A stretch of 64,000 nt of DNA. It comes from Tachypleus tridentatus (lineage: Eukaryota; Arthropoda; Merostomata; Xiphosura; Limulidae). The stretch is taken from contig NC_134834.1 in assembly GCF_004210375.1 (NCBI RefSeq), positions 159,421,290-159,485,289 of the forward strand, in the 5' to 3' direction. The notes below the pieces were generated by a model, which was given only the letters and a program-made list of their open reading frames with translations, was not told the DNA's origin and searched no databases. The number at the start of each line of letters is the position of its first letter. Position 1 is the first letter of the stretch. This document shows, piece by piece, positions 3,288-38,215 of this stretch. The position numbers were made by a program, and so were the translations under genes.

Positions 3288-6200
3288 GTATGTATGATCG
3301 AGTTTATTAGAATAAAAATTTGGTAAAACTTGAGAAATAACTTGTATTTAGATGAAATTTTAAAGATGGTGAAAACTTCAGGTTTCATGTTTGACAGCTG
3401 AAGTTTAAGCTTGTCTATCTCTACTTCTGAGGTTTTCTTCTTGAGTCTACAAATGAGGTTTGACTCATTTAGTTTATCATAAAATTTGAAGAATGTGTTT
3501 TTTTCTATCTAATCATAATAGAACTCTACTTCTGAATCATTCTGTTTCTGCAGGTAATAACATAAGGTTTGATTCATTTAATTAGTCAGTCTGATTTTCT
3601 TTTTTCAACAGATAGTAATGTGAGGTTTGACAAGATTGGTCATAAAGTTTAAGGAATGGTCCCAACCACTTCATAAGTAACAGGGACTCTTAGTTTGTCT
3701 CAGTGTTAGTACAGTATTTAAACTGAAAACTTTCATTCACTGACTTTCCTGTTTTATGTTGCTACATAAATATGGGTATCTATGATGATGCTTTTGATAT
3801 TATAAAGTCATATTCAATTAACCACAGCATGTGTGTGTGTCATGTATTATATCTGTAAGTGAAATTAAATACTGACAAAGATTTAAAAAAAAAAACATTT
3901 TATATCTATAAATCAAATGCTTTTGACTGAGTGGATCTGATTCAATATATTTATCTGACTGTTGTGTTGTGTGCCAGTATATTAGACATTTAAACCTGAA
4001 TTTTTGTGTTAAATCTAATAATTAGTGATGGTTTAGAAGCAGTTCTGAGACCAGTAGCTTCAAACCAGAGAAAGCCATAGTTTTAAAAGGTTGATTAAGA
4101 AGTTAGAGAAAGTTGGAAAATTATCCTTATATAAAACAAGTCTGGAAAAAATGTTTATCTCCCTTTGTTTTTATTATTTCAGAACCAGTAAGTGCACACA
4201 AACCATACTTCCTAAGTGTACCAGTTATATATTTTAACATTATTTTAATCAGTCACTCTGTTAATCTATATGGTGTTATCTAATTCATTAAATTTGATAA
4301 CGTGCGAGATAAATATTGTATTTTGTATGAATATGGACGTTTTATTTTTTACCGTCAAATTGAGATGACTTTGTTTAAAGATTTGTTTTTTCTGTAGAAC
4401 CAATTTCAATTAAATAAGGTCCAAAATCTTTATTACACTTTTTACCTTATAAACTAAAGTAATATTTATTGGGAAGAATTACTAGGAAAAGTTGAAATAA
4501 CATTGTATTGCAAGCCTGGAGAATCTGGGAAATTTTTTGAAAGAACGTTGCCGCTCTGATCTACTAGAATAGCTATGGGATGTGACCCTATGGTGGGGCT
4601 CAAGCAGAAATTGTGAATTGGCAACAGATTTCTGTGAAAATAGTTTCTGTAAATAGTGACATATTCAAAGTTGCTTTGTTTTCTCAACCTCTTCACTGTG
4701 TGATTATGCTGTGGGGAAGATATTACCTTTTATTTTGTCTTTATAAATTTTAAGTTTTTGTGTAGTGCTACATGAGGGCACTAGTGTTCACAACTACCCC
4801 TAATTTTGAAGTGATGAAGTACAGAGAAGGTAGCTAGTCAACACAAATGGACAACTTCAAACATCCTCTTATAGTGCACCCCTGACACCAAAATATAGTG
4901 TGTTTTTGTTGCTATGATATTTGAACTGTGAATCCTAAAATTAAATGTTTGGGCATAATAATCGTCAGGATGATTTTGGTCTTTCTCTTTAGTATCTTAC
5001 ATGTTTTACAATCAAGTATTTTAAAGTTATGGAATAATTTAAAAATTAACTGTATTGAATTGTTCTTACGCTAGCATTCTTTTCAGAATGGTGGTTACTT
5101 TCTGATTTTTATTTATTTGTGATCATTTCTCTTTCACAAAAAGAAAGGTTTGTAAGTGAAAAGGTTTGAGAATCCATTGTCTTTTAGGATTAAAATTTAA
5201 GAGTCATTTTCAGTGAATTTAATGAAAAACTACAGAAAGTGAGAAATACTGAAAAATAATATCATTTGCATTTTGATTTTTCATGTTCTTAGTTTCAAAG
5301 CCAGCACTGAAAAGCATTTGTGTCATAGGGATATAACAGTTATTGACATACCATAATAACTCAATATGAACATTAGAAAAATAAGAAGTTTACATTCAGT
5401 TTAAAAATACTAAAATAGTGTTCTAAATTTTATGCTAAGGTGAATACATGTAACTTTAAAGCTGATTTGAATAAAAGAGAAAATAAAAAGTTGCACATTT
5501 AAGTTTTTGTTTATCTTCAGCCTACTTGTGACAACCATGATGATGGAGAAACTTTGGCCATCATCTTGTGCAATACCTGTGGCAACTTGTGTGCTGACTG
5601 TGATAGGTTTTTACACTTGCATAGAAAGACCCGTTCCCACCAAAGACAGGTGAGTTTTGTTTTTTTTTGTTTAGCCTCGTGCAGGTAAGGTTTAATACTT
5701 GTGGTAACTTGTGTGTTGACTGTGATAGTAATTTTTTTCAAGTGCACAGAGAGATGCATTCAATGAAAGGATGGCAAGTTTTATTATTTAAACTCATACA
5801 GATACCTGTAGTATCTTGTGTGCAGACAGTGATAAGTACTATTATTTAAACTCATACAGATACCTGTAGTATCTTGTGTGCTGACAGTGATAAGTTTTAT
5901 TATTTAAACTCATACAGATACCTGTAGTATCTTGTGTGCTGACAGTGATAAGTTTTATTATTTAAACTCGTACAGATACCTGTAGTATCTTGTGTGCCAA
6001 CAGTGATAAGTTTTATTATTTAAACTCATACAGATACCTGTAGTATCTTGTGTGCTGACAGTGATAAGATTTATTATTTAAACTCATACAGATACCTGTA
6101 GTATCTTGTGTGCCGACAGTGATAAGTTTTATTATTTAAACTCATACAGATACCTGTAGTATCTTGTGTGCTGACAGTGATAAGATTTATTATTTAAACT

Positions 6201-9200
6201 CATACAGATACCTGTAGTATCTTGTGTGCCAACAGTGATAAGTATTATTATTTAAACTCATACAGATACCTGTAGTATCTTGTGTGCCGACAGTGATAAG
6301 TTTTATTATTTAAACTCATACAGATACCTGTAGTATCTTGTGTGCCGACAGTGATAAGTATTATTATTTAAACTCATACAGATACCTGTAGTATCTTGTG
6401 TGCCGACAGTGATAAGTTTTATTATTTAAACTCATACAGATACCTGTAGTATCTTGTGTGCTGACAGTGATAAGTATTATTATTTAAACTCATACAGATA
6501 CCTGTAGTATCTTGTGTGCCAACAGTGATAAGTTTTATTTTTTTTGGCTGCACCTAAAATTCCATTAAGACCAAAGACAGGTAAGATTTGATGCTGAACG
6601 AGTTTGTACAGCCACATTATAAACGTGGAAACTGTTTGCTGTTTATATGTGCAATATAAATTATGTTAAAAGAATTTACCAGATCATGAGTGAAGATTAC
6701 ACAAAATAGTTTGAATGGTTATTAAAAATGTTGCATATTTGTTTGTTAAAGGTTTCAGGGTTGTTTTTGAAAGTATTAAATTTTGCTGTAGTTAGTATTT
6801 ATCTTGTTTCTCAGGTATTTAAGGAAGAAGAAGAGGCCATCAAAGTTGACTTGCATGAAGGCTGTGGGAGGACAAAACTTTTCTGGGTTATGGCTTTAGC
6901 AGACTCTAGAACCCTGAAGGCTATGGTAGAGTTCAGAGAGGGAACAAGAGGTATACAATAGTTAAATAATCAAATATGCTTTCATGCAGGTGTCTCAGCA
7001 GCTGATCCATGGACTAACACTAATCTACAGACATGTTTTTACTAGTTTGCAGAAATATCCAGTGAAAGAAAATTTAAGAAAAACTATGAAAGGTTCAATT
7101 TTCTTAAATTTTTTTATACACAAGTTGAGAATAGGTGATATGTATTGTTTCCTTTTAAGTTCATCTAAATTAACATTAAAACTTTCATTTCAAAGCTTCT
7201 TGAAGAAGCTAAATTCTGAAACTGTCTGTGTACTCTTAATTGTCCATAGGGTTTTACTAAGATTTTATTCATCTATGGAATGAAAAAAAGTGGTCAAAGG
7301 CTCCTTTGTAGATGCTTGGAAAATAGTTATTACAATTAAAAAAATACACATGTTGTAATGTTACTAATTACTGGCTTTAGTGTGTGTAGCTGTAGCTTTG
7401 TGTTTACTTTCAGCTTTTTTTTTCTTTTCATTGTGTTTTTTTTCCAGTTGTATTAACATTATGTTAAATGCTAGTATGGGAAAGTCTCCTGAATAAAGTA
7501 CAGTTAACTGATAATTTGACTCTCGCTAAAAACACTTGGAAGATATTATTAAACTTCCTCTTTAGTCTTTTTTTATCTAATTAATTTGTAAAGGTTCATT
7601 AATTTTGCTGTCCTAAATTATCTGTATATTTCAATTTGTAGAGAACATTGATAAAAGCTTAAAAGTTTAGTGTCTTAGAATATTAATTCAAGTTATATTT
7701 TGGTTCTTAACTGTCTTTTGATTCCCCTCAGGACTAATTATATATTTTTCAACATATTATGTAATACTGATAGAATCATTTATATAAGATAATCTGCAAT
7801 TTATGATGAAAAGTATCGTAAAAATAGTTGTTTAGTACGTCTCCAATAAACAACAAGCACTTTTTTATTTTTTATCATGGGTAAAAATAGCAGCTTTAAT
7901 TTAATTATTTTTAACAAAAAGAAAATCAGACATAATTTAAGACTGCATCTCTTTTATTGGAATTAGTTAATTGTGACTATTCTAGTTTATCCACTTGGTG
8001 TTATTGTAGACAAAAACAAATATAAAGATGTTTACAGTGATAGAGGTAACTTTACTTTCATTTAATAATATAAAAATTGAATGGTAAAGATTAAGGGGTA
8101 ATCACCACTCATTATCAAGATTGGGCTAGAGGTCTTATGAACTAGGATTTATTGATATCAAAGTAGGATGCTATATAATATATATATCCTAATAATATAT
8201 CCTTTTTACTTACTTTATCGAAGTATTTATATAAGAGACCATCAAAATTGACTTGCATGTAAAGTCAAAGAATTAACTCACTTTTGGTTTTCCTTACAGA
8301 ACTTGTCTATTCACTCCACTGCATGTGTAGTCTGATTTTAGTAAAGTGGATGTACTGTTTTTTCCACATTAGATAAGACAACAACTTCTTCAGGAACTTG
8401 TAGATTTTGTGGAGCTACAGGTCAAACCGGATTACTTGCCATTGGTAACGTTTGCAGTGAACCAGAATGTCAAGTAAGTTGGTAAATATTTAGTGCTTAA
8501 GGTGGCTATTTTACTTTTATAGTAATTTTATTTAACAGTTACTATGTGAGATTTTGTTGCTAAAATACATAAGAATTAAATCTAGAAGCTAATGTACAAC
8601 ATCCACCTGTAAGTATGAGAACTCCCAAGTGTTACCATTTAAGAAGATTACAACAACAGTTAAAATGCTGATTTCTGTTTAATAGAAATTTGTTAGAAAA
8701 ATTGGTGAGGATGAGGAAGGTTTATAGAAATGACCTGAAATGCACACAGCAGAATCAGTTTAAGAACAAGTTGCTTTCACTTAATAGAATTTTGTGAAAC
8801 TATAGAAACATACTTTTGTAGGAAAAAATATATTTCTAAAACGTTTGTTTTTACATACAAACTACTTTGAATATCACACAAATAGCAGTTTTCAGTCATT
8901 TTTAATTAACTCTAATATGTCCTGTGATCATTAGTATTTTGGTTGCCAGAATATTCATTTCTCTTTTTTTTCTAAAGTATTTTTGCTTCTTAAACATGCT
9001 GATTAATAGAATCTGCTGTAAAGTTAATAATTCTAATTGAACAAAACATAAGATTTTAATTTAAGATAAATATTTTTTTATGATTTATATAGTTTATACA
9101 CAAAATCAGATATTCTGATAGTTTGTATGTTTTTTTAATTCTACATTTTATGATACTACAATTTATGTACATTCTTGTAGGTTTACAACAGAACTACTCG

Positions 9201-12200: not shown

Positions 12201-15200
12201 AATTATCTCATCTTTTGACCTCTTTGTTTGAAATGGTAATGATATGGATTGATCAAAATTTGGAATGTTGATAGATGTTACTAAACAATGAAAAAACTTA
12301 TCTGAAGTGATAGTATATTACTCTTTTATTGAAGAGAGAAATATTTCCAAAATCATAACATACTTCCTGATCTAAATCACCCTGCTTTTATCGCAGGGGC
12401 ATGCTCGCGGTGCTTGCACAAAGCTCCTGCCGTGTGGCCACATGTGTGGGGGAATACGCAACGAGAACACTTGTTTACCATGCCTGCACGGTTGTAATGG
12501 AGAGTCTTCTGGACTGCGGCAGGATGGGGACGACATGTGCATGATCTGTTTTACAGAGGCACTAGCTTGTGCCCCAGCTATTCAGGTGGGTTAGTCAGCC
12601 ATTATTGTTTATGTTTATCTCAGTTTAGGGCTTTGTATGCTTTCTTTGTTTTTGGCTTGCATGTGTGTTGGCTGTAATTTGGTACTAATGGAATAATTTT
12701 GCAATAACTGATATCAAAACATCATACAGAAAAACACACAATGACAAAAAGGTTTGAACTACCTATGAATTTTGTTTATTTTGTACATAAGGGCATTAAT
12801 ATACCAGGAAATATTACATTAGGAAACATTTTTGTAGTGAAGTATTTATCTACCAAGATATTATACATTTGAATAATGACAATTTTCTTGAATAATTAGA
12901 TATAATCTTATCATATTTTTATTTGCTTTATTTTTGTAGCTTTAAATACGTAACTGTGAGAAGAAGTAATAACATTATAATTTGTTTTTATATTTAAAGT
13001 TCCTTGAATGGTTATTCTTGGTTTTTGTTATCAGAAATTTGAAGGTAGTTTATAAGTTTGCTGCTGTGCTCTAATAATTATCCATAAAATGAAGATTTCT
13101 GCAATCATTCATTGTTTAGAAGGTTAATTGCACTTTACCAGCACACTGCAAGTGCTGATGTAATGGCATGTCATTAAATATGCAACACATTTAATACCTG
13201 TGCATTTGACTCATGGCAAAGTTTAGACCATTTAGGAAATTTCATAATGTTAAATAAACATGTAGGTTCAAGAAGTCCTTTATAGAAATGAAATAAAAAA
13301 ACCTGTAACCTGAATGCTTTTCTCAAAGCAGATTTTGGTTAAATGTGTGTGAAGTTGTGCTCAGGTTTTAGGGTTTCTATTTCACTTTTTAAGGAAAGAT
13401 ATTAATAAAATTGAAGTAACAAAAAGATGCAAAGGTTATTTCAAAGATGACTGATGCAATGAATGGTGTTGAAGAGAAAATCAACACACCCAGCCTGTTT
13501 CCAAATACACAGACTCTGGGGAACCTCTTCATGAAGTAATTGCTTATCAAGGTAGATATTTTTTAGGCAACAGTATACAAAATAATTTACAACTATTCAA
13601 CCCTTCTTAAAAAACACAAGCTGCTTTTGAGGAACATTTACAAAAGAAAGATAAACTCTATGAAACAAGTTTGTAACGCTGAATAAGGACTATATGGCTA
13701 AAAAAAAAAAAAAATTAGTAATTTACTGTACCACGAACATTTATGGACTTTCCAACATAAAATAAAATCTTCTTTTCATTTAGCTGAGATACTGCTTATG
13801 TACTAAATCAAACACAGTGGCCACATTCACCTATTTCCATTTTTGGAAGCAGTTTCTTATATTCACTTCAAACTATGATATCTGAATAACCAATCAACAG
13901 CTTAGAATCTCCCTCATGATCTTCTCAGCCATTTTAATCTACTAAAAGACTACCATGTTCTTTCAAACCAAGATTTCAAGGAGGTAGTTATCTTTAGTTT
14001 GCTCTAAGTTTGTTTTTTTTAGACCTAAATACAGCTTAGTTATTATGCTTGGTAAATTATAGTGGAATTCTAATGTAAGGATATAGTAATTTATGAATTT
14101 TTTGGTTATTCAACTGTATTTTAAAAAATCTAAAATTTTTGTTTCACATTCTCCACTTGTGAAATTTTAAAAAGCTCAATGAACTATGTCCAGCAGCAAG
14201 AGTTCAAAGGTTGTAGCTAGAAGAGATAATTGTTTGCTTTACTTGTTTATTTTAATAAAAATAAGTTTAATAACTTATTTTTAAATAGTAATAATCTATA
14301 TACATAAAAATATAATTGATATGTGACTGTATATAAGAAAATACTAGTCTATTATAAAGAGGCTAAAACAGGACCACTTTGTAGGACTAAAGGTCAGTTT
14401 TATATTATTTGATGTCATAACATGAATGCATGTGCACTGCATAAATGCAAGTTATGTAATGTTAGTCAAGCATCACTGGAAGGTCAATATAATGAAAAAT
14501 AAGAAATAAATATATAATCTTATGAGACTTAATCTTGTTAGACTAAACTTTTGTATATTCTTATTTGTAGTCATTCTAGTATGAAAAAGCATAATTTATG
14601 CTTAATTCTTTTATGATGGTTACAAGGTTGGTCAAATTGATAGATCCAACATAAGTTGGGTAGAGAAAATAACAGAAAAAATATAAAGTTGTACTGAAAA
14701 CAAATGCTTGAAATGTATTAAGGAGGGTTTAGAGATTACACAAATAATATTTGAGATTTTTGGGACAAACGTTTTTTTTTAATTATAACATGAAATCACT
14801 TGATGCTTGGACTAGAAACAAAACAGTCTTGATAATTTCACAAACATATTTTTAGTAAAAATACTTCATTAAAAAATTTGTAATCTTTACTAAAAATCTA
14901 CCAAGTGTGAACTCAGGTATATTACACCAAGCCTGTTGCAAAAGGTTTAAAACAAAAATGAACTTTAGTGTCAGTTTTAATTCGGATAATAACTAATCAT
15001 ACAAGTAAAATTCTTCTTACACTGAGGCTGAGGTGCCAAAAAGGTATGGCTTCCATCAAGTTGCAACATCCAAGTCCACAACAATATTTTGTGAACTATG
15101 AAAAGTGACATTATTATTCATGATATCATGTTCTACAACATGTGTATGTGAAATCACATGACTGTGCATTATGTTCTTCCATGCATTTACTTAAATGTCT

Positions 15201-36954: not shown

Positions 36955-37255
36955 GGCTGTATGGCACAGGAAGTCAGCTGCTCTAACTTAATGATACTTT
37001 ACTGTATGTCACAGGAAGTCAGCTGCTCTAACTTAATGACACTCTTTTGTATGACACACGAAGTCAGATGCTCTAACTTAATGATACTTCACTGTATAGC
37101 ATAGGAAGTCAGCTGCTCTAACTTAATGATACTTTACTGTATGTCACAGGAAGTCAGCTGCTCTAACTTAATAATACTTTACTGTATGTCACAGGAAGTC
37201 AGCTGCTCTAACTCATGATATTTTACTTTATGGAACAAGAAGTCAGCTGTTGTAA
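36955..37255 (+). repeat. 45-bp minisatellite, about 6.5 copies
   Basis: Unit begins atgtcacaggaagtcagctg and ends in tttactgt; starts near 36960, 37005, 37050, 37095, 37140, 37185 and 37229. Copies differ at a few sites; the last is partial. Confidence 0.85.
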
Positions 37256-37735: not shown

Positions 37736-37744
37736 TACTATGTA

Positions 37745-38215
37745 AAACAAGATAAATTTAACAAACTGTACTTTAAAGACATTAAACCATTATGCACAGA
37801 ACAGGATAAATTTAACAAACTGTACTTTAAAGACATTAAACCACTATGCACAGAACAGGATACATTTATCAAACTGTACTTTAAAGACATTAAACCATTA
37901 TGCACAGAACAGGATACATTTATCAAAGTGTACTTTAAAGACATTAAACCATTATGTACACAACAGGATATATTTATCAAAAGTGTACTTTAAAACATTA
38001 AACGATTATGTACATAACAAGATACATTCATTAAAACTGTACTTTAAAGGAATTAAACTAATATGTACACAACAGGATATCTTTATCTAATATGTATTTT
38101 AAAGACATTAAACCATTATGTATACAACCGAATACATTTATCTAAACTGTACTTTAAAGATATAAACCATTATGTACTCAAAAGGATACATTTATTAAAA
38201 CTGTATCTTAAAAAA
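37745..38215 (+). repeat. 54-bp minisatellite, about 9 copies
   Basis: Unit: aacaggatacatttatcaaa, then ctgtactttaaagacattaa, then accattatgcacag. Starts at about 37747, 37801, 37855, 37909, 37963, 38016, 38070, 38124 and 38178; divergence grows toward the right end. Because 54 is a multiple of three, both strands show open frames with an 18-residue repeat. Confidence 0.88.

Follow-up and report, generated by a model that had tools for sequence, protein, structure and literature searches.

The window analysed here, a stretch of 64,000 nucleotides of the horseshoe crab Tachypleus tridentatus (contig NC_134834.1, positions 159,421,290 to 159,485,289 of the forward strand), contains part of a gene assigned to MYCBP2 and, in the intron following an exon designated E, a minisatellite of 58-bp units which very probably arose from the 3' half of that exon. 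The assignment of the host gene is supported by a downstream exon at about 12397–12585, since 26 of its residues match PDB chain 5o6c_A (E-value=1.2e-6), an entry that bears the name E3 ubiquitin-protein ligase MYCBP2. A sequence-only reading had described exon E as the B-box exon of MYCBP2. The gene name holds through the match to the PDB chain, while the B-box label is weak, the similarity to the Pfam ANCHR-like B-box (E-value=0.26) lying below the cut-off. No second MYCBP2 locus was listed in a genome search with the peptide of exons E and F, and in our own reading the splice sites and phases of exons E, F and G are mutually compatible. The features are as follows:

5521–5649, forward strand: exon E (E1), the source coding exon, 129 nt, phase 0-0, open frame, donor CAG/GTGAGT at 5650
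5565–5572, forward strand: CTTGTGCA in exon E, marking the left border of the duplicated segment, a near-repeat of CTCGTGCA
5650–5684, forward strand: spacer 1, the first part of the intron, which separates E1 from E2 and is homologous to spacer 2
5676–5683, forward strand: CTCGTGCA, the intronic partner of the exon word CTTGTGCA, at the probable first-round duplication junction
5694–5775, forward strand: E2, a degenerate copy of the 3' half of exon E, with ATG/GCAAGT now at the donor position
5774–5801, forward strand: spacer 2, between E2 and E3, which makes up the 58-bp unit outside its exon core
5776–6543, forward strand: the 58-bp minisatellite, 13.2 copies, its unit made up of the E3 exon core and spacer 2
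6498–6590, forward strand: E3, the last unit running into the exon 3' end and a donor-like CAG/GTAAGA, with the GT at 6581
6815–6950, forward strand: exon F, the next MYCBP2 exon, found by peptide search, open frame, acceptor at 6814
8373–8473: exon G, with splice sites and phases that fit E and F

The array has the highest score among the nine tandem-repeat rows of the window and spans 768 bp at 95% matches. Its units stand head-to-tail, their length lies within the range of about 10–100 bp and the array within the hundreds of bases expected of a minisatellite, and the terminal unit is incomplete, the 13th breaking off into E3. The sequence-only reading had counted thirteen exact 58-bp units at 5571..6545. 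The unit length and the number of copies stood up; exactness did not, as there are 9 distinct sequences among the 12 complete units, with 6 variable columns and a mean pairwise identity of 96.5%, and nucleotide 5571 falls inside the exon. CpG-derived dinucleotides account for three of the six variable columns (GCCGAC, GCTGAC and GCCAAC; CTCGTAC and CTCATAC), which suggests decay of methylated CpG at these three; the observed/expected ratio of CpG in the window is 0.62. Because 58 is no multiple of three, each unit shifts the reading frame.

The unit consensus is identical to exon E at 33 of 39 bases, where the earlier figure was about 35 of 41, and the alignment score of 48 compares with a maximum of 26 among shuffled sequences (0 of 2000 dinucleotide shuffles reach 48; Gumbel p=1.3e-9) and with a best score of 29 among 1459 tiles of the window taken from outside the locus. 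Comparison with shuffled sequence had been named beforehand as the test of an exon origin, together with the occurrence of the unit elsewhere in the genome, and the likeness lay far above the shuffles. When four units were used to search the 2.17-Gb assembly, with one candidate region scored and common words skipped, the search listed five matches, four in the array and one in exon E (39 bp, 87%, E-value=8.3e-4), and no dispersed copies; this kind of search is insensitive to short copies, an exon F query having missed a known 27-bp copy 1.4 kb away, and short diverged copies of the unit elsewhere in the genome are not excluded by it. Derivation of the unit from a transposon or a dispersed satellite, or a chance likeness to the exon, is nevertheless exceedingly improbable: shuffles and window tiles speak against chance, and a transposon origin was rejected on the genome search, limited as it is, which lists no other locus.

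The array was not the first copy of the exon. Between exon E and the array lies E2, which agrees with the exon at 49 of 61 positions in its best stretch (Gumbel p=4.4e-12; above all 2000 shuffles) and which was also listed by peptide searches (50% identity; E-value=0.12 in the genome and 2e-4 in a 264-kb region that ends with the window). With 80 nt against 78 in exon E, it is out of frame by its end. At the other end of the array, the exon homology leaves the last unit in register and continues to the exon end and the donor-like site at 6581. This copy, E3, is 66% identical to exon E over 83 bp (E-value=1.8e-5 in a window search), and its exon end with the donor matches at 19 of 21 positions (p=1.3e-4; above all 2000 shuffles). 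In a three-way alignment of E1, E2 and E3 the pairwise identities, flanks included, are 76/111, 71/112 and 69/114, and the three are colinear through the donor. Spacers 1 and 2 share 20 identities in 35 columns, a score reached by none of 5000 shuffles. Given the limits of homology among the three copies and their spacers, the older duplication unit consisted of the exon 3' half, the donor and the start of the intron. No homology upstream of 5572 was detected by alignment to the text before E2. That the exon start and acceptor were copied as well was tried and rejected: the similarity of 5490–5572 to the text before E2 was reached by 155 of 2000 shuffles in global and 350 of 2000 in local alignment, and by 1494 and 1489 of 2000 in two shorter trials.

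These observations are best accounted for by a neutral minisatellite that grew out of the 3' half of an exon of MYCBP2 through two rounds of duplication, one nested in the other, a reading in which we have high confidence. The homologies themselves, their order and their colinearity can be read directly in the DNA, as can the single locus listed by the genome search; slippage as the agent, the timing and the lack of function we infer. The claim of a local exon duplication followed by amplification is thereby supported in finer detail, with E2 and E3 as the copies that the sequence-only reading had missed.

The duplicated part would have comprised the exon 3' half, the donor and about 30–45 bp of intron, giving rise to the copies E2 and E3. 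In the first round a tandem duplication would have covered about 111 bp, from 5572 in the exon through the donor into the intron, its probable cause being slippage or unequal exchange that paired the exonic CTTGTGCA with the intronic CTCGTGCA. These two words differ at one position and lie 111 bp apart (judged post hoc, P=0.014 against shuffled spacer). E2 and E3 would both have been unconstrained and have decayed. In the second round, AAGTTTTATT-like words at the old donor of E2 and within E3, 58 bp apart, may have supported repeated slippage which amplified the 58-bp segment to 13 units inside E3; the 58-bp unit does link AAGTTTTATT at the E2 donor to the same word inside E3. Forerunners of this AAGTTTT-like word, picked post hoc, are present in E1, within the exon as AGGTTTTTA and at the donor as GAGTTTTGT, and the near-repeat therefore pre-dates the array. 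Unequal exchange, gene conversion and CpG decay would since have kept the units similar though non-identical, and the intron is presumably removed whole, from 5650 to 6814. The array is most likely functionless and neutral.

Several observations weigh against this account. The E2 word that corresponds to the second-round junction is altered to AGTAATTTTTTT, and the short-repeat junctions as a whole were chosen after the fact. The tail of E3 taken alone gives a modest signal, its score being reached by 1 of 2000 shuffles against E1 and by 13 of 2000 against E2. Homology of the intron beyond the E3 donor is marginal at best in global alignment (212 and 339 of 5000 shuffles) and no better than chance in local alignment (2934 and 4541 of 5000). 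An 11-bp stretch before E2, at 5684–5694, has no counterpart in E3. Finally, E2 is conserved unevenly, with 3 differences in the 35 sites of its core against 14 (by subtraction) in the other 37 compared sites, a pattern that is not expected under simple neutral decay. This core could have been kept similar by gene conversion between exon and copies, in which case the copies are older than they look. We regard this as unlikely though still credible; the conserved stretch is short, few events are involved, and local alignment favours good regions. Such conversion modifies the two-round birth and does not replace it.

The coding content of E2 bears on a further alternative, namely that E2 or E3 began as a functional duplicated exon, for example a mutually exclusive one, and was lost later. 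E2 is open in one frame across 5664–5780 and keeps NTCGNLC-DCD-H, and it is better preserved in the core than in the flank. Among 24 codons comparable with exon E, out of 72 compared sites with 17 differences in total, there are 12 nonsynonymous and 5 synonymous changes, where random change predicts 4.0 synonymous (P=0.36); change in E2 is thus near neutral, and the chance that no stop would appear under neutral change is 0.56. At the level of the sequence E2 has no sign of coding constraint. The 5' part of exon E (17 codons) is undetectable in spacer 1, and in our own reading the CAG at 5684 is the one frame-preserving site among the acceptor-like sites that precede E2. A functional duplicated exon would be of full length, with splice sites and an intact frame; here the 5' part is undetected, the E2 frame is lost and the units measure 58 bp. 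We therefore hold a functional past of either copy to be very improbable. As in tandem exon duplication, part of an exon was copied to the neighbouring intron; the MYCBP2 copy differs in that it consists of the 3' part alone and has decayed, leaving no usable cassette.

The intron was also scanned for splice sites, scored throughout by consensus counts. Donor-like sites of at least 7/9 were found at 5650 (the real donor, 9/9), 5685 (8/9), 5774 (a GC-type site, 8/9 in scoring that accepts C) and 6581 (8/9), and none within the array units. All 13 units have an acceptor-like CAG before them, with a pyrimidine fraction of 0.62; the true acceptor of the exon has 0.69, and a stronger acceptor-like site at 5674 reaches 0.88. 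From these sites one may picture E2 or E3 as included at times as a frame-breaking pseudoexon which lowers MYCBP2 output, the array length setting the rate of inclusion through 13 acceptor-like CAGs upstream of the one near-consensus donor at 6581. An intronic minisatellite of Caenorhabditis elegans which is enriched near multiply spliced exons, according to passages of PMC4039745, lends this some plausibility. The acceptor-like sites are, however, broken by A-rich text and known from consensus counts, no unit has a 7/9 donor, and change in E2 is neutral. Pseudoexon use is possible, unsupported by the sequence, and on balance very improbable. In the 5656–5694 region a pyrimidine tract is followed by CAG/GTAAGG, resembling a joined acceptor-donor of the recursive-splice type; this look-alike lies only 35 nt from the donor of exon E.

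A minisatellite of the IFI6 (6-16) gene is reported by Turri et al. (1995) to provide several splice donor sites. The MYCBP2 array is like it in adjoining or overlapping an exon end and in carrying splice-junction text, to judge from a citing passage in PMC4526556. It is unlike it in that its units, where those of the IFI6 type carry donors used in transcripts, contain no donor of at least 7/9, a single donor-like site lying 3' of the array.

The frequency of short duplications was assessed in the 264-kb region. Outside tandem arrays, 13 adjacent duplicate pairs were detected as against 2 in one block-shuffled control, with duplications of about 50–116 bp, periods of 89–244 bp and scores of 35.4–71.1 bits; any pair that overlapped a tandem array was left out, as was the case for E1/E2. 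The lowest pair (35.4 bits) scores no higher than the two null pairs (35.4 each), the null being a single shuffle, and three of the 13 come from tiles for which the region has 3, 10 and 17 hits. A run on the reversed sequence gave 26 pairs; reversal keeps repeats and so provides no null. At 56.8 bits the E1/E2 pair is within the range of the 13. By these counts short adjacent duplications are frequent in the region, and it is no surprise that one of them should overlap an exon; because they are so common nearby, the array may be regarded as the product of ordinary mutation in which an exon chanced to be caught up. When 22 merged arrays of the region were compared with their 3-kb flanks, 5 had a flank match (E≤0.01), of which the MYCBP2 58-bp array alone matched an identified exon, other exons being not established. 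The remaining minisatellites of the window (units of 45, 54, 44 and 65 bp) had no match at E≤5 in exons E–H. Two of these lie about 490 bp apart, at 36957–37249 (45 bp x 6.5) and 37739–38213 (54 bp x 8.8).

A second exon of the gene has left a partial copy:

8233–8259, forward strand: partial copy of exon F (source 6831–6857), 27 bp, 25/27 identical, in the next intron, not amplified

This copy has an E-value of 0.001 in the 264-kb region, and p=7.3e-7 and p=2.6e-6 in two tests. Comparison of four MYCBP2 exons with both of their flanks, exon F being taken as 6815–6951 and exon G as 8372–8473, one base off their final ends, was positive in 2 of 8 cases, both downstream. For other genes none of 12 comparisons was positive (lowest p=0.08); these used a small, unannotated sample of six UCH-domain stretches, out of 84 matches, chosen for short stop-free frames; they are domain matches with unverified exon ends. 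The contrast of 2 of 4 MYCBP2 exons to 0 of 6 other coding stretches is the basis for a more elaborate proposal, that MYCBP2 copies parts of its exons into its own downstream introns unusually often and that one such copy would have become a length-variable array of acceptor-like sites ahead of a near-consensus donor, working as a tunable, frame-breaking pseudoexon. To this we give very little credence.

As to the origin of minisatellites in general, slippage or exchange between short direct repeats is said to have been proposed by Haber and Louis (1998) and by Taylor and Breden (2000). The MYCBP2 array resembles this type in an incomplete terminal unit and a head-to-tail arrangement, and candidate short near-repeats, chosen after the fact, lie at both nested junctions, where the type has direct repeats of 5–20 bp that precede amplification; unlike it, its seed is a coding exon with a 5' splice site, and intermediate copies are visible. 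Passages of PMC3389668 describe two models of birth, via short flanking direct repeats or via slippage at noncontiguous repeats, and the layout of the near-repeats would fit the requirements of both as given there. The earthworm metallothionein genes contain intronic minisatellites and exon duplications that are absent from the transcript (PMC12783039). They are like MYCBP2 in combining an intronic minisatellite with duplicated exons in one kind of gene, and unlike it in that an exon origin of the repeats is not stated in the passages at hand. Among the literature matches listed, drawn from a collection with few subscription journals, no title names a minisatellite of coding-exon origin in an intron; this does not establish the rarity claimed in the sequence-only reading.

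Passages of PMC7210998 put the neutral rate of the horseshoe crab Carcinoscorpius rotundicauda at 1.37e-9 per site per year and its divergence from the Atlantic species at 135 million years ago. At this rate, the 17 differences in E2 would place its origin, very roughly, at 100–210 million years. The mean unit divergence of 3.5% suggests a far younger turnover of the array. Two steps dated in this way predict that E2 and E3 occur in some or all of the living horseshoe crab species, with arrays that differ. The origins of minisatellites are hard to study once the seed has been erased; here the exon that served as source can still be read, as can the first and second copies and the array, so that a known kind of event has left an unusually well-preserved record of its birth. 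There is probably no consequence for the biology of the gene.

Scans for tRNA genes (none found) and for bacterial promoters (2 as against 1.6 expected) were uninformative. Genome-wide, there were 19 matches to Coagulin, as against none in 14 control genomes, which, as far as they are named, are prokaryotes and so do not bear on other animals. Coagulogen is not known outside the horseshoe crabs, and the coagulogen-like exons make a chelicerate, most likely a horseshoe crab, the probable source of the DNA. In addition to the main locus at C11:9016804-9022066, coagulogen-like loci include C7:19216972-20544518 and C11:42928882-42964722, which suggests a small gene family.

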